Assembly (NCBI RefSeq): GCF_030406725.1
Contig: NZ_CP129107.1
Span: 372,001 to 436,000, forward strand
Direction: 5' to 3'
Source: Alteriqipengyuania flavescens
Lineage (GTDB): Bacteria > Pseudomonadota > Alphaproteobacteria > Sphingomonadales > Sphingomonadaceae
Length of the DNA: 64,000 bases
Position numbers and translations under genes: made by a program. The notes beneath the pieces were generated by a model. That model did no database searches. It was not told the origin of the DNA and was given only the letters and a program-made list of their open reading frames with translations. Position 1 is the first letter of the stretch, and each line of letters opens with the position of its first letter. Positions 1 to 10,481 of this stretch are shown here, in pieces.

Positions 1-960
1 TCCGCCAACGCGTTCTTCAACGGCACTCCGGTAGCTGTCGAAGCCGGAGCGACATATTGGGACATCCTTCCCAGTTTCAACCTGACCGCTCGCTTCAATT
101 CCGACTGGGTGGTCCGCATGGCGGCATCGCGCCAGATCATGCGCCCACGCCTCGATGACCTGCGGGCCTCGATCGGCTATGGCATCAACAACAACCCGTC
201 GGACAGCCCGACCGGACAGGCACCCTTCATCAGTGGCGGTGGCGGGAACCCGGTTCTTCGGCCCTATCGTGCGAACGCGATCGACATGAATTTCGAGAAA
301 TATTTCGGCGGCAGCCGGGGTGTCGCGTCGCTGCAGCTCTTCTTCAAGGATATCGAAGAATATATCCTGAATGGCCAGTTCGCGTTCGATTACGCCGGTT
401 TTCCGCTTCCCGACGGAGTGACCGTCCCCACCACGATTGGACGGCTCGATGCGCCGATCAATACCGGCGGTGGCCAGTTGTACGGTGCAGAACTCGCCCT
501 GACGCTGCCCTTCGGCATCCTCACACCGTCGCTCGAAGGCCTCGGCTTTACGGGCGGTGCGTCGGTCACCGAATCCAACGTGAAGGACCAGAACGGCAAC
601 GAAACCGCCATCCCTGGTTATTCGAAGTGGGTCGTGAACGGCACGCTGTTCTACGAACAGGGCGGCTTTAACGCCCGTGCCAGCGCACGTTATCGTTCCA
701 GCTTCCTCGGCGATTTCACGGGCTTCGGCGGTTCGCCGACGCGCCGGACCGCGCTCGACGAAACGATCATCGATGCGCAGATCGGCTACGACTTCCAGGA
801 CAACAGCCCGCTCGATGGCCTGTCGATCTACTTTCAGGGCCAGAACCTGACGGACGAGCGGTTCGCTTCGGTGGCCAACGAGGACAGCCCGCTGCAGGTC
901 ATCGACTACCAGATCTACGGTCGTCGTTTCCTCGCCGGCTTCACCTACAAGTTCCAGTAA
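1..960 (+). CDS. TonB-dependent receptor, C-terminal part (5' end outside window)
   Basis: The reading frame is open from base 1, so the plug domain and early barrel lie outside the window; about 319 residues of the C-terminal beta-barrel remain. Alternating aromatic/polar strands, a typical barrel segment near the end (YFQGQNLTDERF) and the terminal strand RRFLAGFTYKF are characteristic of this family. The chain ends one residue past the usual C-terminal Phe (…KFQ). These receptors bind a ligand at the outer membrane and import it using TonB-ExbBD energy. The downstream glucan-hydrolase genes suggest a malto-oligosaccharide ligand; this is inferred from context only. An 88-base gap holding a hairpin separates it from the halogenase gene. 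Confidence 0.93.
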   Translation, partial: SANAFFNGTPVAVEAGATYWDILPSFNLTARFNSDWVVRMAASRQIMRPRLDDLRASIGYGINNNPSDSPTGQAPFISGGGGNPVLRPYRANAIDMNFEKYFGGSRGVASLQLFFKDIEEYILNGQFAFDYAGFPLPDGVTVPTTIGRLDAPINTGGGQLYGAELALTLPFGILTPSLEGLGFTGGASVTESNVKDQNGNETAIPGYSKWVVNGTLFYEQGGFNARASARYRSSFLGDFTGFGGSPTRRTALDETIIDAQIGYDFQDNSPLDGLSIYFQGQNLTDERFASVANEDSPLQVIDYQIYGRRFLAGFTYKFQ

Positions 961-968
961 GGCATTAT

Positions 969-1009
969 CCGGTGCCGGCTACGCTCACTTTCGAGCAGGT
1001 CGGCACCGG
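969..1009 (+). terminator. Intercistronic hairpin after the receptor gene
   Basis: A perfect 9-bp stem (CCGGTGCCG at 969-977 paired with CGGCACCGG at 1001-1009) encloses a 23-base loop. No T-run follows, so it is not a classical intrinsic terminator. It could be a 3' stabiliser or partial terminator that lowers transcription into the halogenase/hydrolase genes relative to the receptor. This role is inferred. Confidence 0.45.
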
Positions 1010-1048
1010 AGGCCATTGGGGTCGGCCCGGGCAGACGGGACCGAACCT

Positions 1049-2578
1049 ATGACAGCTCAGCAAACTTCAGGCGCAGCTGGCGATAAAGCGGCAGCGCGCG
1101 CGGATTTCGTCATCGTGGGCGGCGGTACCGCCGGCTGGATGGCCGCCGCCGCGCTTGCCCGCTTCGCCCCGCACAAGCGCACCGTCCTCGTCGAAAGCGA
1201 TGCCATCGCCACCGTCGGCGTGGGCGAGGCGACGATCCCGCAAATCCGCCTCTTCAACCAGGCGCTGGGCCTGGACGAAGCCGAATTCCTTGCCGCCACG
1301 AAGGGCAGCTTCAAGCTAGGCGTCGAGTTCGCCGACTGGCGAGAGCCCGGCCATTCCTACCTCCACGCTTTCGGCCCAGTCGGCTGCGCGCACGGGGTGT
1401 TGCCGTTCCACCATTTCTGGCTGCGCGCCCGCGATGCCGGCAAGGCCCGCCCGCTTAGCGCCTACAGCGCCAACGACATCGCCGCGCGCAACAACCGGAT
1501 GGGGGCGCCCGGCACCGACTTTCCCTACGCCTATCATTTCGACGCCGGCCTCTATGCCGCGCACCTGCGCGCCTATGCCGAAACGCGCGGGGTTACCCGC
1601 ATCGAAGGCACGGTCGACCACGTCCGGCAGGACACCGAAAGCGGCGACATCGCGGGGCTCGACCTCGGCGATGCGCGCAGCATCGACGGGGACTTCTTCC
1701 TCGACTGCACCGGCTTTCGCGGCCTGCTGATCGAACTGGCGCTGGGCGCGGGCTATGCCAACTGGGCGGACCTGCTGCCCTGCGACCGCGCGGTCGCCGT
1801 CCCCTGCAAGTCGGGCGGCGACTTCACCCCCTACACTCGCTCCACCGCGCGCGAGGCCGGCTGGCAATGGCGCATCCCCCTGCAGCACCGGATCGGCAAC
1901 GGCTATGTCTATTCGAGCGCCCACCTGTCGGACGAGGCGGCAGCCGACACGCTGCTCGCCCTTCTCGACGGGGAGCTGCTGGCCGACCCGCGCACGCTCA
2001 AATTCACCACCGGCATGCGGCGCCGGCACTGGCACCGCAACTGCCTCGCCCTCGGCCTTGCCGCCGGGTTCATGGAGCCGCTGGAATCGACCTCGATCCA
2101 CCTCGTCCAGTCCGCCATCGCCCGTTTCCTGACCCTGATGCCGGGCACCGAGAACACCGCCGCGCTCGCCGACGAATTCAACCGGCAGGCGGAGTTCGAA
2201 TGGACGCGGATCCGCGATTTCCTTGTCCTGCATTACTACGCCAACGGCCGCACCGGCGAAGCGTTCTGGGACGAGCGACGCGCGGCGACGCTGCCCGACA
2301 CACTGGCCGCGAAACTCGAGCTCTGGCGTGCAGGCGCTCGCATCACCCGCGAGCGCGAGGAGCTGTTCACCGAAGTCGGCTGGACACAGGTTCTTATCGG
2401 CCAAGGCGTTATGCCCGACAGCTGGAACCCGCTCGCCGATGCGCTGCCGGACGATGATCTGGAGCGCTTTCTCGAAGCGGCCCACCGCGCCTGCGTGAAG
2501 ACCGTCGAACCGATGCCGACCCACCACGATTACCTCGGCGCCCTGCTGGCGCGCACCACCAAGGAAGTTGCCGCATGA
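1049..2578 (+). CDS. Flavin-dependent tryptophan-halogenase family protein (halogenase 1)
   Basis: A 509-residue member of the FAD/reduced-flavin-dependent halogenase family, which makes HOX at FAD and passes it down a tunnel to an active-site Lys. The N-terminal FAD motif GGGTAGW is at residues 24-30, a family Lys lies in SFKLGVEF (K89), the halogenase signature WQWRIP is at 272-277 and the catalytic-Glu segment EPLESTS at 343-349. ATG 1049 was chosen because it precedes the FAD motif at normal spacing; an in-frame TTG at 1016 would add 11 poorly conserved residues. The gene overlaps the amylase by 4 bases (ATGA). Family members in TonB-receptor loci are known, but their physiological substrates are mostly unproven; tryptophan is not assumed here. 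Confidence 0.88.
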   Translation: MTAQQTSGAAGDKAAARADFVIVGGGTAGWMAAAALARFAPHKRTVLVESDAIATVGVGEATIPQIRLFNQALGLDEAEFLAATKGSFKLGVEFADWREPGHSYLHAFGPVGCAHGVLPFHHFWLRARDAGKARPLSAYSANDIAARNNRMGAPGTDFPYAYHFDAGLYAAHLRAYAETRGVTRIEGTVDHVRQDTESGDIAGLDLGDARSIDGDFFLDCTGFRGLLIELALGAGYANWADLLPCDRAVAVPCKSGGDFTPYTRSTAREAGWQWRIPLQHRIGNGYVYSSAHLSDEAAADTLLALLDGELLADPRTLKFTTGMRRRHWHRNCLALGLAAGFMEPLESTSIHLVQSAIARFLTLMPGTENTAALADEFNRQAEFEWTRIRDFLVLHYYANGRTGEAFWDERRAATLPDTLAAKLELWRAGARITREREELFTEVGWTQVLIGQGVMPDSWNPLADALPDDDLERFLEAAHRACVKTVEPMPTHHDYLGALLARTTKEVAA

Positions 2579-4419
2579 CCACTCGCACCGCCCTCGCCAT
2601 GTCGCTCGCCGGCGCCGCGCTCCTGCCCGGCTGCGCGCCCGCTCTCGCCCAGTCCGCGCCCGCCACCACTTCAGCGCCCATGCCCACGCTGGAGCAAGTG
2701 CGCGAGAGGCTGGCGGAAGACGAAGTGGTCTATTTCGTCCTGCCCGACCGTTTCGACAACGGCGATCCCGCCAACGATGACGGCGGCTATGGCGCCGATC
2801 GGCTCGTCAGCGGATACGATCCCACGCACAAGGGCTTCTACCACGGCGGCGACCTCGCCGGGCTGACCGCGCGGCTGGATTACCTGCAGGGCATGGGCAT
2901 CACCGCGATCTGGTTCGCGCCGATCTTCGCCAACAAGCCGGTCCAGGGCCCTGCGGGCGACGAGAGCGCGGGCTATCACGGCTACTGGGTCACCGATTTC
3001 ACCCGGATCGACCCGCATTTCGGCACGAACGAGGAATTCCGCACTTTCGTGAATGCCGCGCACGCCCGCGGGATGAAGGTCTACATGGATATCATCACCA
3101 ATCACACGGCGGATGTCATCAAGTACCGCGAAGGCTTCTCCTATCGCAGCAAGGGCGATTACCCCTACTCCACCCGCGGCGGGCCCGATGGGGCGGCAAT
3201 CAACGAAGGCTTCATGGGCGACGAGGTCCGCACGGAAGAAAACTTCGCGCGGCTGACCGACATGACCTACGCCTACACGCCCTATGTGCCGGAGGCGGAG
3301 CGCGACGTTAAAGTGCCGGCGTGGCTCAACGACCCGCGCTATTACCACAACCGCGGAGACACGACTTTCAGCGGCGAAAGCGCGCGGCTGGGCGACTTCG
3401 TGGGGCTCGACGACCTTTACACCGAACAACCCTTCGTCGTGCGCGGCATGATCGACATCTACGCGCAGTGGATCGAGGATTTCGGCATCGACGGCTTCCG
3501 CATCGACACCGCGCGGCACGTGAACCCCGGTTTCTGGCGGGAATTCGTGCCTGCCATGCTGGCGACAGCCCATGCGCGAGGCATCCCCAACTTCCTGATC
3601 TTCGGCGAGGTTTACGCCGAAGATCCGATGGCGGGCTACATCGCCGAATACACGCGGCGCGACGGCTTTCCTGCCGTGCTCGACTTCGCGTTCCAGCAGG
3701 CGGTGCTCCGCTATGCCGGAGCGGGCGGCGATGCGTCCATCATGACCCGCCTCTTCGACGGCGATGTCCTGTACGAAGGCGGCGAAGCGGCCGCGCTGAA
3801 GCTGCCGACCTTCCTCGGCAACCACGACATGGGCCGCTTCACCACCATGACGAAACAGCGCGTGCCCGGCATCTCGCAAGAGGAGCTGCTGGCGCGCACG
3901 CAGCTGGCCCACGCCATGCTGATGACGCTGCGGGGCAATCCCGTAGTCTATTCCGGCGACGAGCAGGGCTTCGTCGGCGACGGCAACGACCAGGCCGCGC
4001 GAGAGGACATGTTCCCCAGCCGGGTCGCCAGCTACAACGACAACGACCTGATCGGCACCGACGCCACCACGGCGACGGACAATTTCGACCGCAGCCACCC
4101 GCTCTATCGCCTGATCGCGCAGCTTTCCGCCGTCCGGCAGGCCAACCCGGCGCTGCGCCGCGGCCTGCAGACCATGCGCCAGTGGGACGATGCGCCCGGC
4201 ATCTTCGCGGTCACGCGGCACGATCCGGAAAGCGGGCAGCGTGTCCTGCTCGCCTTCAACAACACCGCCGAGCCACTTAGCGGCAATGTCGCGGTCGATT
4301 ACGCCGCGCGCGATGTGACGACCCTGGCAGGCGCCGCCTGTCCCGCAACGGTCGCCGTGCCCGGCAGCGTTGCCGTAAACCTGCCCGCCTTCGGCTGGGC
4401 CGTGTGCGAACTGAAATGA
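2575..4419 (+). CDS. Alpha-amylase family glycoside hydrolase (GH13), exported
   Basis: A 614-residue GH13 enzyme that should cleave internal alpha-1,4 bonds of starch or maltodextrin. All four conserved regions are present: DIITNH (172-177), GFRIDTARH with nucleophile D311, FGEV with acid/base E345, and FLGNHD with D418. The N-terminus has a hydrophobic signal with LLPGC at 16-20, so it may be a lipoprotein, or it may be cleaved after ALAQ. A C-terminal all-beta domain follows the barrel. It overlaps the upstream halogenase stop and the downstream glucosidase start by 4 bases each, indicating translational coupling. Amylase, cyclomaltodextrinase or neopullulanase specificity cannot be separated by eye. 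Confidence 0.93.
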   Translation: MTTRTALAMSLAGAALLPGCAPALAQSAPATTSAPMPTLEQVRERLAEDEVVYFVLPDRFDNGDPANDDGGYGADRLVSGYDPTHKGFYHGGDLAGLTARLDYLQGMGITAIWFAPIFANKPVQGPAGDESAGYHGYWVTDFTRIDPHFGTNEEFRTFVNAAHARGMKVYMDIITNHTADVIKYREGFSYRSKGDYPYSTRGGPDGAAINEGFMGDEVRTEENFARLTDMTYAYTPYVPEAERDVKVPAWLNDPRYYHNRGDTTFSGESARLGDFVGLDDLYTEQPFVVRGMIDIYAQWIEDFGIDGFRIDTARHVNPGFWREFVPAMLATAHARGIPNFLIFGEVYAEDPMAGYIAEYTRRDGFPAVLDFAFQQAVLRYAGAGGDASIMTRLFDGDVLYEGGEAAALKLPTFLGNHDMGRFTTMTKQRVPGISQEELLARTQLAHAMLMTLRGNPVVYSGDEQGFVGDGNDQAAREDMFPSRVASYNDNDLIGTDATTATDNFDRSHPLYRLIAQLSAVRQANPALRRGLQTMRQWDDAPGIFAVTRHDPESGQRVLLAFNNTAEPLSGNVAVDYAARDVTTLAGAACPATVAVPGSVAVNLPAFGWAVCELK

Positions 4420-6029
4420 GCAGCCACGCATCCTCCCCGGCGCCGGACGCGCAGGCCCTGCCGTGGTGGCAGGGCGCGGCGATCTACCAGATCTATCCGC
4501 GCAGCTTCCGCGATACCAACGGCGACGGCATTGGAGACTTGCCGGGCATCACCAGCGGGCTGGACCATGTCGCCAGCCTGGGCGTCGATGCCGTGTGGAT
4601 CAGCCCCTTCTTCACCAGCCCCATGCGCGATTTCGGCTACGACGTGGCCGATTACTGCGACGTCGACCCCATCTTCGGCACGCTGTCCGATTTCGATGCG
4701 CTGGTCACGCGCGCGCACGAACTCGGCCTCAAAGTGCTGATCGATCAGGTCTATTCCCACACGTCCGACGACCATGCGTGGTTCGCCGAAAGCCGCGCCA
4801 GCCGAGACAATCCCAAGGCCGACTGGTACGTGTGGCGCGACGCGAAGCCCGACGGGTCGCCCCCGACCAACTGGCAGTCCGTCTTCGGCGGGCCGGCATG
4901 GACCTGGGACGCACGGCGCGGCCAGTACTACCTGCACAATTTCCTCGCTAGCCAGCCGCAGCTGAACGGTCACAACCCCGACGTCCAGCAGGCCTTGCTG
5001 GACGTGGCGAAATTCTGGCTCGACCGCGGTGTCGACGGTTTTCGTATCGATGCGATCAATTTCTCGATGCACGATCCCGAATTCCGCGACAATCCGCCCG
5101 CCCCACCGACGGACAAGCCGCGCACCCGCCCGTTCGATTTCCAGCTCAAGACCTATAACCAGTCGCACCGGGACATCCCGCTGTTCCTGGAACGGCTGCG
5201 CAGCCTGGCCGACCGCTACGATGCGACCTTTACCCTGGCCGAAGTCGGCGGGGACGAAGCGCTGGTGGAAATGAAGAGCTTCACCCAGGGCGACGCGCGC
5301 CTCAACAGCGCCTACGGCTTCGACTTCCTTTATGCCGACAAGCTCACGCCGCAGCTCGTCTGCCGGGCGCTAGGCGACTGGCCGGGGCAGCCGGGCGAAG
5401 GCTGGCCCAGCTGGGCGTTCGAGAATCACGATGCGCCCCGCGCCGTATCCCGCTGGGCGGCGCCCGAACACCGCACCGCCTTCCTGCGCTGCAAGATGGC
5501 GCTGCTAGCGGCCCTGCGCGGCAACATCATCGTCTACCAGGGCGAGGAGCTGGGCCTGACCCAGGTCGACATCCCCTTCGAGCAGTTGCAGGACCCCGAG
5601 GCCATCGCGAACTGGCCGCTCACCCTGAGCCGCGACGGGGTCCGCACGCCGCTGCCGTGGGCGGGCGATGCGCCGGACATGGGCTTCGGCAGTGCCGAGC
5701 CATGGCTGCCGGCGAGCGAGGACCACCGTCCACTCGCCATCGACCGGCAGGAAGCGGACGATGCCTCCCTGCTCCACTTCACGCGCGACGTGCTGGCCCT
5801 GCGAAATGGCCACCCGGCGCTGCACCACGGGGCGCTCGAACGCTGCCGGGCAAGTGCGGCGCTGCTGAGCTTTGACCGCGTCGCAGACGGGGAGCGTATC
5901 CGCTGCCTGTTCAACCTGTCGGACCAGACGATCGACACCGCCGATGCCGCAGGATCTCCGATCTTCGCGGTCAACGCCGCCGATACCGACACCCTCCCCC
6001 CATACGGAGCCCTGTTTTTGTCATGCTGA
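4416..6029 (+). CDS. Alpha-glucosidase, GH13 oligo-1,4/1,6-glucosidase type
   Basis: A 537-residue GH13 exo-enzyme releasing glucose from malto-oligosaccharides. It opens with the family start WWQGAAIYQIYPRSF. The conserved regions follow: DQVYSH (110-115), GFRIDA with nucleophile D212, LAEVGG with acid/base E276, and FENHD with D339. No signal peptide is visible, so it is probably cytoplasmic, unlike the exported amylase and GH97 enzyme next to it. ATG 4416 overlaps the amylase stop in ATGA; an in-frame GTG at 4404 would be an alternative. Its stop overlaps the GH97 start by 7 bases. Confidence 0.93.
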   Translation: MSSHASSPAPDAQALPWWQGAAIYQIYPRSFRDTNGDGIGDLPGITSGLDHVASLGVDAVWISPFFTSPMRDFGYDVADYCDVDPIFGTLSDFDALVTRAHELGLKVLIDQVYSHTSDDHAWFAESRASRDNPKADWYVWRDAKPDGSPPTNWQSVFGGPAWTWDARRGQYYLHNFLASQPQLNGHNPDVQQALLDVAKFWLDRGVDGFRIDAINFSMHDPEFRDNPPAPPTDKPRTRPFDFQLKTYNQSHRDIPLFLERLRSLADRYDATFTLAEVGGDEALVEMKSFTQGDARLNSAYGFDFLYADKLTPQLVCRALGDWPGQPGEGWPSWAFENHDAPRAVSRWAAPEHRTAFLRCKMALLAALRGNIIVYQGEELGLTQVDIPFEQLQDPEAIANWPLTLSRDGVRTPLPWAGDAPDMGFGSAEPWLPASEDHRPLAIDRQEADDASLLHFTRDVLALRNGHPALHHGALERCRASAALLSFDRVADGERIRCLFNLSDQTIDTADAAGSPIFAVNAADTDTLPPYGALFLSC

Positions 6030-8077
6030 CCCGCACCAAACTCGCCCTCGGCACCGCGCTGTTTGCGCTTGCCCCCTCGCTCGCTTTTGCCGACGAGGTC
6101 GCCTCTCCCGACGGGCGCATCGTGGTAGAAGTGGATGCGGACGGCGAAGGCAAGCCGTTCTACCGCGTCACCCGCGACGGAGAGGAAGTGATCTCTTACT
6201 CCACGCTAGGCTTCAACCTGACCGACGGCGACCCGCTGCGGCGCAATTTCGAAGTCGTCGGCGTGACCCGTGCGCAGGCGGACGAGACGTGGGAGCAGCC
6301 GTGGGGCGAGCGCCGCTTCGTGCGTGACCACCACCGCGCCATGACGGTCACTTTCGCGGAAAAGAACGACGCGCCGCGCAGCTTCAGCGTGCAGGTGCGC
6401 GTGTTCGACGACGGGTTCGGCTTCCGCTACGAATTCCCGCAGCAGCCGGGCTGGGATGTCGCGCGCATCGCCGACGAGCTGACCGAATTCAACCTCAGCG
6501 TATCGGGCACCGCATGGTGGATTCCGGCGGGCGACTGGAACCGCTACGAGTATCTGTACGAGACCACGCCGATCGACGCGGTCAGCACGGCGCACACGCC
6601 GATCACGATGGTGACGGACACCGGCCTGCACCTGTCTTTTCACGAAGCGGCGCTGGTCGATTATTCCGGCATGTGGCTGAAACGGATCGCCGGCACGCGG
6701 TTCCGCGCCACGCTTTCGCCCTCCAGCCGCGGCGCCAAGGTGGTGCGCGAGCTGCCCTTCCACACGCCGTGGCGCACCGTGCGCATGTCTGACGATCCGG
6801 GCGGCCTCGTCGAAAGCGACATCGACCTCAATCTGAACGAGCCCAACAAGCTGGGCGACGTCAGCTGGTTCGAACCGCATAAATACATTGGCATCTGGTG
6901 GGAGATGCACCTCGAGGACAGCAGCTGGGCGAGCGGGCCCAAGCATGGCGCGACCACCGAAAATGCGAAGAAATACATCGACTTCGCTGCCGCCAACGGC
7001 TTTCGCGGCATCCTGATCGAAGGGTGGAATGTCGGCTGGGACGGAAACTGGTTCGGCAACGGGCGCGATTACAGCTTCACGCAGGCCTACCCCGATTTCG
7101 ATATCGAGGAGGTCGCCCGCTACGCCGCAGAAAAGGGCGTTCGGATCATCGGCCACCACGAAACCGGCGGCAATATCGAGGTGTACGAGCGCCAGCTGGA
7201 AGATGGCTTCGCGCTCTACGAAAGGCTCGGCATCGACGCGGTCAAATCGGGCTATGTCGCGGATGCGGGCGGAATCATCGCCTGCAATGCCGACGAGGCC
7301 GACCCGTGCGCGGAGGAAATCTTCGAATGGCATGACGGGCAGCGCATGGCACAGCACCACCTGAACGTGGTGAAGGCCGCCGCGCGCCACCGCATCGCGG
7401 TCAACCCGCACGAACCGATCAAGGACACCGGCCTGAGGCGCACCTATCCCAACTGGGTCAGCCGCGAGGGCGCGCGCGGGGCGGAATACGATGCCTGGGC
7501 AGTGCCGAAGAACGATCCCGGCCACGTGCCGGAACTGGTCTACACAAGGATGCTGTCGGGCCCGATGGATTACACCCCCGGCGTCCTCAGCCTGGAAGGC
7601 CGCGGCGCGACGCAGCCTGACCTGTCGAGCACCCTGGCCCGGCAGCTGGCGTTCTACGTCGTGATCTATTCGCCGATCCAGATGGCGGCCGACCTGCCGG
7701 AAAACCTCGCCGCATGGCCGCAGGGGCTCGACTTCATCAAGCGCGTCGCGGTCGACTGGGACGAAAGCCACCTGCTCGCCGGCGAGGTCGGAAAATACGC
7801 CGTTTTCGCGCGGCGCGAGCGCGGCGGCGATGCATGGTATCTGGGCGGCGTGACCGACGAGGAACCGCGCGATGTTTCGCTAAGCCTCGACTTTCTCTCT
7901 CCCGACACCGAATATGTCGCCACGATCTGGGAAGACGGCGAAGGAGCGGACGGCATGGGTGACAATCGCCACGCGATGAATGTGCGCGAAGTCATCGTGC
8001 GCAAGGGCGATACGCTGGACATCGGCATGGCGCGCGCCGGGGGCTTCGCGGCGGAAATCAAGTTCAGCGGCGAATGA
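6023..8077 (+). CDS. GH97 alpha-glucosidase (SusB-like), periplasmic
   Basis: A 684-residue family-97 glycoside hydrolase with a clean signal peptide (residues 1-23, cleavage after AFA). An N-terminal beta-sandwich is followed by a (beta/alpha)8 barrel and a small C-terminal beta domain, the normal GH97 order. Conserved glutamates are in HHETGG (E380), HEPIKDTG (E464) and REGARGAEY (E482, E488). The 24-residue E464-E488 spacing equals that of the base and acid I recall for the inverting enzyme SusB, so an inverting alpha-glucosidase is favoured over the retaining GH97 alpha-galactosidases. It overlaps the esterase gene by 4 bases. Likely role: periplasmic hydrolysis of imported maltodextrins. 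Confidence 0.92.
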   Translation: MLTRTKLALGTALFALAPSLAFADEVASPDGRIVVEVDADGEGKPFYRVTRDGEEVISYSTLGFNLTDGDPLRRNFEVVGVTRAQADETWEQPWGERRFVRDHHRAMTVTFAEKNDAPRSFSVQVRVFDDGFGFRYEFPQQPGWDVARIADELTEFNLSVSGTAWWIPAGDWNRYEYLYETTPIDAVSTAHTPITMVTDTGLHLSFHEAALVDYSGMWLKRIAGTRFRATLSPSSRGAKVVRELPFHTPWRTVRMSDDPGGLVESDIDLNLNEPNKLGDVSWFEPHKYIGIWWEMHLEDSSWASGPKHGATTENAKKYIDFAAANGFRGILIEGWNVGWDGNWFGNGRDYSFTQAYPDFDIEEVARYAAEKGVRIIGHHETGGNIEVYERQLEDGFALYERLGIDAVKSGYVADAGGIIACNADEADPCAEEIFEWHDGQRMAQHHLNVVKAAARHRIAVNPHEPIKDTGLRRTYPNWVSREGARGAEYDAWAVPKNDPGHVPELVYTRMLSGPMDYTPGVLSLEGRGATQPDLSSTLARQLAFYVVIYSPIQMAADLPENLAAWPQGLDFIKRVAVDWDESHLLAGEVGKYAVFARRERGGDAWYLGGVTDEEPRDVSLSLDFLSPDTEYVATIWEDGEGADGMGDNRHAMNVREVIVRKGDTLDIGMARAGGFAAEIKFSGE

Positions 8078-9009
8078 TCGGGCGCGCGCTCGCCCTCTTT
8101 GCCGCGGTGCTGCTGGCCGCCTGCGCCAGCGTTCCCGCGCCGGACGACGGCGACCTCGCGCGCGGGGGGCGGATCTTGGGCTACGGCCCGCTCGCGGTCG
8201 GCGGGCTGCCCGACCAGCGCATCTCGATCTGGCTGCCGCCAGGCTATGACGAGGGCGCGCGGCGCTATCCGGTGCTCTACATGTGGGACGGGCAGAACCT
8301 GTTCGATCCCGCCAGCACGCACTACGGCAAGGCGTGGATGGCGCAGGACGTGCTGGCTGGAATGGTCGCGCGCGGCGAGGCGGAGCCACACATCGTCGTC
8401 GGCCTGTGGTCGCCGCCGGGCAAGGACCGCTACCGCACCTACCAACCCGAAGCCATCGCCGAACTGGTCCCCGAAGAGGTCGCGACCAGCGTCCGCGACA
8501 TGGCGGGCGGGCCGCTCGCATCCGACGCGAATGTCGCCTGGCTGGCGGACACGGTAAAGCCGTGGGTCGACCGGTCATTCCGCACGCAGGCCGCACCCGA
8601 AAGCACCACGATCGTCGGCGCCAGCATGGGCGGCGTGCTGGCGTGCTACAGCCTGATAGAGCGCCCCGACGTCTTCGGCCGCGCAGGCTGCGTCAGTTCG
8701 CACTTCGCCGTTGCAGCACCGGGCATCGCCGCCCGCCATACGCCCGCTATCGTGGGCGCCTGGCGATCCTATCTCGACCACCGCCTCGCCCTGCCGGAAG
8801 GCCGCCGCATCTGGATGGACCACGGCACCGCCGCACTGGATTCCTATTACGGTCCGTACCAGCTGGGCATCGCCGCTCATCTCGACACCATGGCCGGCTG
8901 GACGCGGGACAAGGATTTCACCGCCCGCGTCTACGAAGGCGCGGAGCATGACGAGATTGCCTGGAATGCCCGCATGGCGGAAATGCTGGCGTGGCTATGG
9001 CGCGAATGA
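8074..9009 (+). CDS. Esterase-like alpha/beta hydrolase lipoprotein
   Basis: A 311-residue alpha/beta-hydrolase of the putative-esterase (Fes/EstA-like) group. A signal with lipobox LAAC is near residues 14-17, so it should be membrane-anchored in the periplasm or outer membrane. The nucleophile elbow is GASMGG (S184) and the candidate catalytic His lies in GAEHDEIAW near the C-terminus. It sits between GH97 and the second halogenase with 4-base overlaps on both sides, so it is made as part of the glucan operon. The substrate is unknown; removal of acyl groups from a decorated glucan is an inference from position only. Confidence 0.82.
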   Translation: MIGRALALFAAVLLAACASVPAPDDGDLARGGRILGYGPLAVGGLPDQRISIWLPPGYDEGARRYPVLYMWDGQNLFDPASTHYGKAWMAQDVLAGMVARGEAEPHIVVGLWSPPGKDRYRTYQPEAIAELVPEEVATSVRDMAGGPLASDANVAWLADTVKPWVDRSFRTQAAPESTTIVGASMGGVLACYSLIERPDVFGRAGCVSSHFAVAAPGIAARHTPAIVGAWRSYLDHRLALPEGRRIWMDHGTAALDSYYGPYQLGIAAHLDTMAGWTRDKDFTARVYEGAEHDEIAWNARMAEMLAWLWRE

Positions 9010-10481
9010 AGGGCGGCAAGGCGCCCGACATCATCGTGCTCGGCGGCGGGAGCGCGGGCTGGATCACTGCCGCCCTGCTCCACCACGCATGGGCGGACAA
9101 GGGCGCGTCGGTTACGCTGGTCGAAAGCCCCGCCATCGGCATCATCGGTGTGGGCGAAGGCTCCACCCCGCAGCTGAAGGCGTTCTTCGACTTGCTCGGC
9201 ATCGATGAAACAGAATGGATGCCCGTTTGCGACGCGACCTACAAGCTGGGCATCCGCTTTTCCGGCTGGAGCGCGCGGTCGGGCTTCGAAAGCTATTTCC
9301 ACCCCTTCCCTGGCCCCACCGACCTCCACACCCAGCCCGCTTTCGAACAGGTCTGCGCGGCCCAGCGGCGCGGATACGAGGCGGGCGCGCATCCCGACCG
9401 CTGGTTCCTCGCCACCCGGTTGGCGGACGAGGCGAAGGCACCCCAAGCGGGCGAAAACTTCCCCTTCGCGCCGAGCTATGGCTACCATTTCGATGCGCAC
9501 AAGCTGGGCGCATTCCTGCGCGAATGGTGCGTTTCGCGCGGCGTCGTCCACCGCGAGGCGCAAGTCGCCGATGTCGAGGTGGCAGCCGGCGAGGTACAGG
9601 CGCTCGTCTGCGATGACGGCACGCGGATTGGGGGCGACCTGTTCGTGGACTGCTCGGGCTTCCGCGCCGTGATCGCAGAAGCGCTCGGCAGCGAATTTCA
9701 GTCCTATGGCGAGAACCTGTTCGCCGATCGCGCCGTGGTTATGCCGACACCGCGTGATGGGACGCGCATCGTGCCGGCCACCGGCGCCATCGCCATGCGC
9801 GCCGGCTGGCGCTGGTCGATCCCGCTCACCGTCCGCACCGGCAACGGATACGTCTATTCATCCGCCCATATCTCCGACGACGAGGCGGCGGCCGAACTCG
9901 CGCGCGAATGCGGCGGCGACGCAGAGCCGCGTTTCCTGAAGATGCGGGTGGGCCGGATGCGCGAAAGCTGGCGCGGCAACTGCCTGGTCGCAGGCCTGTC
10001 GCAAGGCTTCATCGAGCCGCTGGAGGCGACCGCGCTCCACATCGTGATCCACACCGCGCTCGAATTCATCCAGGCGCACGAGCAAGGCGGGTTCACCGCC
10101 AGGCACCGCGACGCGTTCAACGCCTCCATCAGCGAGCGGTACGACGGCATCCGCGACTACATCGTCGCCCATTACCGGCTCAACCGGCGCGACGGCGACT
10201 ACTGGCGCGCCAACGCCGCGAACGATGCCATCTCCGACCGGCTGAAGGCGATGATGACCGCGTGGTTCACCCACCGCGACATCGCCGCCGCCAACCGCGA
10301 GCTGTATCCGAAGGAATATTATTCGAGCGCCAGCTGGCACTGCCTGTTTGCAGGCTACGGCAGCTTCCCGCCGCCGGAAAAGATGCAGCCGCTGCCTGCC
10401 GATGCGCCGCTGGCCGACCCGGCGCGGATCGATGCCATGCTGGCCGCCTGCGCGCGGAATTTCGGCGAATACGCGTCCTAG
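9006..10481 (+). CDS. Flavin-dependent tryptophan-halogenase family protein (halogenase 2)
   Basis: A 491-residue second halogenase homologue, clearly diverged from the copy at 1049. It has the FAD motif GGGSAGW (13-19), the family Lys in TYKLGIRF (K80), WRWSIP at 268-273 and the catalytic-Glu segment EPLEATA (337-343). In characterised halogenases the last element reads E-S-T-G and its T-G backbone holds the halide; here it is E-A-T-A. ATG 9006 was chosen for the ATGA overlap with the esterase stop; GTG 8991 and ATG 8997 are in-frame alternatives. It ends the operon, and its stop shares the bases CTAG with the convergent queF stop. Confidence 0.86.

Follow-up and report, generated by a model that had tools for sequence, protein, structure and literature searches.

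The window, a stretch of 64,000 nucleotides from Alteriqipengyuania flavescens (contig NZ_CP129107.1, positions 372,001 to 436,000), begins inside a TonB-dependent receptor gene. Directly behind it lies an operon in which two flavin halogenase genes (halogenases 1 and 2) flank genes of starch degradation. In this study, the link between such halogenases and glucan enzymes was found not to be general; the halogenases follow receptors of the TIGR01782 family. We are about evenly balanced between belief and doubt that they form a module partnered with the receptor at sugar-uptake loci, with the receptor, rather than starch, as its centre. An earlier note, made from the sequence of the window, had raised a function tied to glucan use, which was not borne out as a general rule.

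Halogenases and TIGR01782 receptors in the order

The order was sampled with 60 genomes, which included the window genome and were not seeded by the operon. Only halogenase matches above 142 bits were counted and weaker ones were dropped; the receptor lists are lower bounds, with at most 12 candidates scored per genome and the weakest receptor and halogenase matches left out. A TIGR01782 receptor was found within 5 kb of 98 of the 138 halogenases, against 3.1 expected at random positions, which supports the earlier placing of these genes near TonB receptors. When the halogenases were classed from the Pfam score alone, a receptor lay within 5 kb of 71/85 genes in the class of halogenases 1 and 3 (the latter elsewhere in the window genome), 21/45 halogenase-2-like genes and 6/8 divergent genes; for GH13 the numbers were 19/85, 6/45 and 1/8. 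Within 10 kb, 66 of the 88 halogenase loci had a TIGR01782 receptor and 19 had GH13 or GH97. Halogenase and receptor counts per genome were correlated (Spearman 0.75), and both families were present in 29 of the 60 genomes.

The co-occurrence of halogenase and GH97, for which the earlier note proposed a survey, held in one direction: 12 of the 14 receptor-linked GH97 genes had a halogenase, while most halogenase loci had neither GH13 nor GH97. Among all 22 GH97 genes, a halogenase was within 10 kb at 13, a receptor at 14 and both at 12, and a second, halogenase-2-like gene was present at only five of these 12, the window's own included. Maltose-type loci with a receptor and no halogenase nearby were found in G004 and G057 of the order sample and later in G561, G633, G638 and G775. 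We consider it improbable that the halogenases take a direct part in glucan use, for example with imported maltodextrin or an amylase as their substrate. The overlapping genes of the operon and its conservation in 54 sphingomonad loci (see below) would suit such a role; the 19/88 loci, the maltose loci without a halogenase and the related enzymes beside xylan- and beta-glucan-type hydrolases argue against it, and glucans have no aromatic ring. Glucan use as the general function of the halogenases is thus disfavoured.

The genes around halogenase-receptor pairs were of many kinds. Pfam was run on 114 of 119 neighbouring proteins (up to seven per locus, at least 200 residues; five were omitted for size) from 19 of 20 chosen loci, L228 giving none. 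The first 25 of the 128 families included MFS_1 (12), GH3 (11), Cupin_8 (9), LacI (7), SapC (5), GH67, GH9 and GH10 (3 each) and GH13, GH43 and GH16 (2 each); one surveyed locus, L227, extends into a maltose-type locus. Because the neighbour families range over GH3, GH67, GH9, GH10, GH43, GH16 and GH13, the hydrolases vary while halogenase and receptor stay. Cupin_8 is a family that includes known protein hydroxylases; of its 29 genes in the order, 25 had a halogenase and 26 a receptor within 5 kb, and for the 56 SapC genes the numbers were 24 and 23. One gene order seen was receptor, SapC, Cupin_8, halogenase (e.g., G005 C1:1402033-1408231).

The receptor tree (quick FastTree) comprised 67 linked TIGR01782 receptors and the 73 unlinked ones that were fetched, out of 80; three receptors at 5-10 kb were excluded from this contrast. 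The linkage state changed 8 times on the tree, against 47 changes in 200 shuffles (least 37). The linked receptors formed eight clades, and the clade label changed 8 times on the tree of the nearest halogenases, where the minimum is 7 and the shuffled mean was 39 (least 33). Halogenase and receptor clades therefore match almost one to one. The pairing is not merely one shared transcript, since 13 of the 18 pairs of clade T2 were divergently transcribed. The comparison shows that halogenases of this kind are inherited with TIGR01782 receptors, clade by clade, at loci for various sugars.

In 20 regions with a halogenase and no TIGR01782 receptor, six large neighbours, one per region, were tested with Pfam, and all six were TonB-type receptors, that of L246 with a weak score (28.7, cut-off 27). 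The neighbours tested in L255, L260 and L265 were an EPSP synthase, an Alginate_exp protein and a DUF885 protein; halogenase-2-like genes without a receptor, as in these and other regions, may have a different job, and the one in L255 stands beside the EPSP synthase gene. Gene calling was poor in at least five of 40 loci (L228, L230, L251, L259 and L264).

The operon of the window and its relatives

The features of the locus are as follows.

1..960, + strand: 3' end of the TonB-dependent receptor gene, TIGR01782, whose start lies at C1:370207, about 1.8 kb to the left and outside the window
968..1010, + strand: hairpin in the spacer that separates the receptor gene from halogenase 1; no T run follows it
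1049..2578, + strand: halogenase 1, BrvH/Xcc4156-like, PF04820; catalytic Lys and Glu kept, no signal peptide visible
2575..4419, + strand: GH13 amylase-like enzyme (GH13a); the N-terminus resembles a lipoprotein signal by eye
4416..6029, + strand: GH13 alpha-glucosidase (GH13b); closest solved relative QsGH13 (7voh, 893 bits), no signal peptide visible
6023..8077, + strand: GH97 alpha-glucosidase-like enzyme with N, catalytic and C domains; closest solved relative 5hq4 (729 bits), signal peptide by eye
8074..9009, + strand: PF00756 esterase; weak likeness to ferulic acid esterases (39 bits), lipoprotein signal by eye
9006..10481, + strand: halogenase 2, of a second, more distant PF04820 clade; catalytic Lys and Glu kept

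The earlier note had described a run of six genes on one strand, overlapping by 4 to 7 bases, directly after a TonB receptor. This was confirmed: the open reading frame (ORF) list and family profile searches gave PF04820, GH13, GH13, GH97, PF00756 and PF04820, the junction sequences overlap by 4, 4, 7, 4 and 4 bases in gene order, and the receptor scored 533 bits against TIGR01782 (cut-off 310). With an overlap at every junction, the proposed coupling of halogenases and hydrolases is likewise supported. Long antisense ORFs, such as 2671-4431 (-) and 1316-2527 (-), were taken as a by-product of 67% G+C.

The 88 bases between the receptor end and the ATG of halogenase 1 hold the hairpin (-54.9 kcal/mol, z -6.0), which none of 200 shuffles equalled. 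In 54 relatives, with the spacer taken up to the first matched codon of halogenase 1, z was below -3 in 27, and an inverted repeat of at least nine bases occurred in 37, a count made without a shuffled control. About half of these spacers were thus strongly folded; a common repeat sequence was not noticed among them. The hairpin of the window probably sets the ratio of receptor to enzyme mRNA.

Left of the window, a divergent arm carries a LacI regulator, an MFS transporter and a third GH13. Because the receptor stands with these genes, the locus is one for maltose/starch uptake; it combines the TonB receptor, LacI, MFS and alpha-glucan hydrolases of a maltose/starch carbohydrate-uptake (CUT) locus, and the close solved relatives of GH97 and the second GH13 are alpha-glucosidases. 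The halogenases are encoded with amylases here because this receptor is of the maltose/starch type. The genome, one contig of 2.72 Mb, has three PF04820 genes and three TIGR01782 receptors above the cut-off, two of which adjoin a halogenase. Halogenase 3 (C1:2221323) lies beside another TIGR01782 receptor; at that locus (L005:6854-16772, C1:2217854-2227772) the receptor is divergent, with a further receptor, MFS and dehydratase genes close by.

Relatives of halogenase 2 were collected as the best 80 of 123, of which, judged by record title, 60 loci were from sphingomonads and 20 from other groups. Receptor, halogenase 1, GH13a and halogenase 2 occurred together in 54 of the 60 sphingomonad loci, 52 of which also had GH97, and the remaining six were on contigs under 12.5 kb. 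Since 54 loci keep these four genes, the gene order is no accident; the sample was seeded with halogenase 2 and is uninformative on how often the operon is without it. The 20 other loci, a few of them on contigs of very small size, belonged to Alteromonadales, Cellvibrionaceae, Betaproteobacteria and further groups. A receptor match was within 5 kb of the halogenase 2 relative in 14 of them, and none had a GH13 or GH97 match of 50 bits to the window proteins. In the Alteromonadales loci L064, L066, L068 and L069, receptor and halogenase stand opposite a large ORF. The large ORF of L064 matches starch-binding-like domains and is followed by an FG-GAP/UnbV protein, L066 has an additional protein with a vanadium-haloperoxidase-like domain, and L068 and L069 look similar.

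Within the maltose operon (52 loci and the window; quick FastTree), the receptor type changed 7 times on the tree of halogenase 1, 12 times on that of GH13a, 17 on that of GH13b, 18 on that of GH97 and 15 on that of halogenase 2. One divergent receptor type was accompanied by one halogenase 1 type in 6/6 cases. The match is thus highest for the nearest gene and falls with distance, halogenase 2 excepted, as it might if the pairs had simply moved with the receptors and had no functional tie to them. We regard such hitchhiking as very improbable, because the pairing spans several orders and both divergent and tandem layouts, the hydrolases change around it, and the active sites are kept.

The enzymes and their candidate substrate

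Halogenases 1 and 2 have full-length PF04820 domains (590 and 407 bits, cut-off 21), and the catalytic Lys and Glu, the flavin adenine dinucleotide (FAD) motif and W-x-W-x-(I/V)-P are present in halogenases 1, 2 and 3, reading WxWxVP in halogenase 3. Among 86 halogenase ORFs of at least 400 residues from the fetched receptor loci, which include halogenases 1 and 3, Lys and Glu were kept in 85. With intact catalytic residues, degenerate halogenases in this genome were rejected, and the option that these proteins no longer halogenate is disfavoured. They would be working cytoplasmic enzymes dependent on FADH2, O2 and halide; a cytoplasmic place is probable for halogenases 1 and 2 because no signal peptide was seen by eye. 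Among the divergent members elsewhere, up to four halogenase genes stand in a row beside one receptor, as with L126:6420-7986 (G039:C1:1121783-1123096); one such member, without both catalytic Lys and Glu, is perhaps a partner pseudo-enzyme.

Halogenase 1 was closest to 9luq (475 bits), Xcc4156 (6y1w, 470 bits) and BrvH (6frl, 433 bits). It aligns with the last two over nearly the full length and has Lys, Glu and WxWxIP in common with them. An open substrate site like that of BrvH is likely, because halogenase 1 and BrvH align without a gap through the lid region; the lid alignment of halogenase 2 is ambiguous, and this protein scores best against other halogenases. Like BrvH, halogenase 1 lacks the lid residues with which the free-tryptophan halogenases PrnA and RebH grip the amino and carboxy groups of tryptophan (Trp). 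The latter enzymes belong to natural-product clusters, and the neighbours here are sugar-uptake genes; a natural-product role was rejected, as no such genes are nearby. A second halogenase gene lies beside that of BrvH too (PMC5945002).

Because loci of starch, xylan and beta-glucan type are all involved, the shared substrate cannot be one glycan. The receptor is the obvious candidate, since it is made in the cytoplasm and is present in most such loci. We tentatively prefer the receptor polypeptide, as the least certain part of our reading: one or more Trp would be halogenated (or oxidised) before export, and the modification would tune ligand binding or receptor stability at the cell surface. 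Of the options in the earlier note, a ligand taken in through the receptor does not sit easily with glycan enzymes as varied as these. A surface molecule fits best if the receptor itself is meant, with the modification as a candidate only. A wider version, which we hold as possible but doubtful, is a widespread post-translational modification of TonB receptors in which each clade's own halogenase, often with a Cupin_8 oxygenase and SapC, halogenates extracellular Trp; BrvH-type enzymes, too, would then have their native role here.

Two residues of maltose-type receptors, Trp 242 and Trp 442 (917-residue numbering), are a lead in this direction. Over the four receptor types of the operon, Trp 242 was found in 44/44 sequences with a residue at this column (11 were gapped) and Trp 442 in 55/55, and both were invariant in 19 clade members of the order sample as well. 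In six maltose-type receptors beside GH13/GH97 that lack a linked halogenase (L272-L277), position 242 is Phe or Tyr, and there is no Trp at 442. No halogenase match at E 1e-30 was found in three of their genomes (G057, G561 and G633), and in G638, G775 and G004 the halogenase is on another contig or more than 40 kb off; these six loci are natural controls for the pairing. Both Trp are also missing from seven further relatives (L278-L284), whose genomes have a halogenase 8.7 kb away in G757 and otherwise at least 15 kb away or on another contig. L271, which has both Trp and at first appeared to lack a halogenase, proved to have one at 2.3 kb, and L288, a more distant receptor with a halogenase at 2.2 kb, has Tyr at 242 and an aligned Trp at 442. 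These receptors came from searches that covered 386 genomes of the class, with a match in 6, and 397 of the order, with a match in 26; receptors fetched twice (L207/L272, L219/L277, L181/L281, L093/L270/L293 and others) were counted once in the unpaired totals. In a model of the related receptor L009 (mean pLDDT 84), a long strand ends at Trp 245, and segment 399-449, which links two long strands, contains Trp 442. From segment length only, both Trp are taken as extracellular; the strand count is ambiguous.

The substrate could instead be a small, free aromatic molecule of indole-like or phenolic type, with a part in signalling, defence or detoxification, and with the halogenases merely co-induced with sugar receptors. 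We see this as conceivable without much confidence in it. BrvH halogenates free indole at C3 in vitro (PMC5945002), and BrvH and three Xanthomonas relatives are active on indole derivatives (PMC7336383); indole acceptance is a property of those enzymes, the window enzymes being known from sequence alone. Some halogenase-2-like genes had no receptor detected, and the esterase of the operon is weakly ferulic acid esterase-like; it is, however, present in only 21 of the 80 halogenase 2 loci, and the clade-by-clade match with receptors is unexpected for a free-standing metabolite pathway.

Another alternative keeps the receptor as partner and makes the enzymes flavin hydroxylases of protein Trp instead of halogenases. 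The Cupin_8 neighbours and weak NCBIfam matches to QhpG, LodB and GoxB (QhpG only for halogenase 3) are in its favour. The halogenase motifs with Lys and Glu, the in vitro halogenation by BrvH, and the activity of BrvH and its relatives on indole derivatives make it unlikely.

Several results weigh against the receptor-centred reading and its substrate. TIGR01782 receptors occur without a listed halogenase in 11 of the 60 genomes and halogenases without such a receptor in two, and for 80 of the 150 receptors the surrounding 10 kb held no halogenase. The receptor profile matched nothing in several other regions with halogenase-2-like genes. The match falling from halogenase 1 to GH97 is also expected from joint transfer of neighbours; its decay with distance therefore leaves joint transfer as a possible explanation in the maltose operon. 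The partial Mantel test with the receptor fails to single out halogenase 1 (0.165, p 0.014) from halogenase 2 (0.162, p 0.008) and GH13a (0.116, p 0.035); GH97 gave 0.057 and GH13b -0.141. These values were unlike those from the inverse matrix, in which short overlaps were dropped, and therefore the label changes on the trees were relied on. The contrast at Trp 242 and 442 amounts to one or two evolutionary events, because the maltose receptors without a partner group in one or two clades, and sugar binding alone could account for these Trp. In a column-wise comparison of alignments, no Trp position common to all paired receptor clades was found; 63% of the paired receptors have W in the best shared column (YNWR, near the C-terminus), as do 12% of the unpaired ones, and the window receptor has Tyr there. 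A single target residue for all paired receptors was rejected; column 1287, promising at first, falls in a loop that aligns poorly. In other paired clades, the invariant Trp are peculiar to the clade and stand at other positions. Trp made up 9 of 20 clade-specific conserved residues against 21% overall, with an uncorrected and thus only nominal p of 0.02, and rare Met and Cys were equally enriched. Finally, the likeness to the protein-Trp hydroxylase QhpG is weak, the profile NF049967 giving 38.8 and 36.9 bits against a cut-off of 240, and the CmlS score was nearly equal.

Known systems and significance

The maltose/maltodextrin loci of Xanthomonas (XCC2469) and Caulobacter (MalA) also combine a TonB receptor, regulator, sugar transporter and alpha-glucosidases, and XCC2469 is induced by maltose (PMC1790865). 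They differ in that two halogenases flank the hydrolases in the window, and the word "halogenase" is absent from the main text of PMC1790865. MibH and SrpI act on Trp within a peptide (PMC10286304), and the authors of BrvH compared its open active site with that of MibH (PMC5945002). Both, however, are part of peptide natural-product pathways, of which none was seen at the window locus. QhpG shares a distant common fold, and its substrate is protein-bound Trp (PMC7876137), with the low score given above as the difference.

No paper describing a halogenase-receptor module was found in the open-licence library that was searched; subscription journals, for example those with the Xanthomonas halogenase and MalA papers, were outside this search. 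The main texts of PMC2996990 and PMC11909599 do not mention halogenases, and the available text of PMC11337851 treats tryptophan halogenase and TonB-dependent receptors separately. In a Sphingomonas isolate, a tryptophan halogenase gene was among the hits of a colony-morphology screen, with a single insertion (PMC11340318, as far as its text was available), which may bear on a surface role.

The native substrates of BrvH and its three Xanthomonas relatives were called unknown in 2020 (PMC7336383). The loci described here point to a chemical step tied to sugar receptors, and the partnership narrows the search for the native substrate to a few proteins per cell. If receptors are halogenated, nutrient uptake, and perhaps phage entry too, would be subject to a new level of control in common freshwater, marine and soil bacteria.

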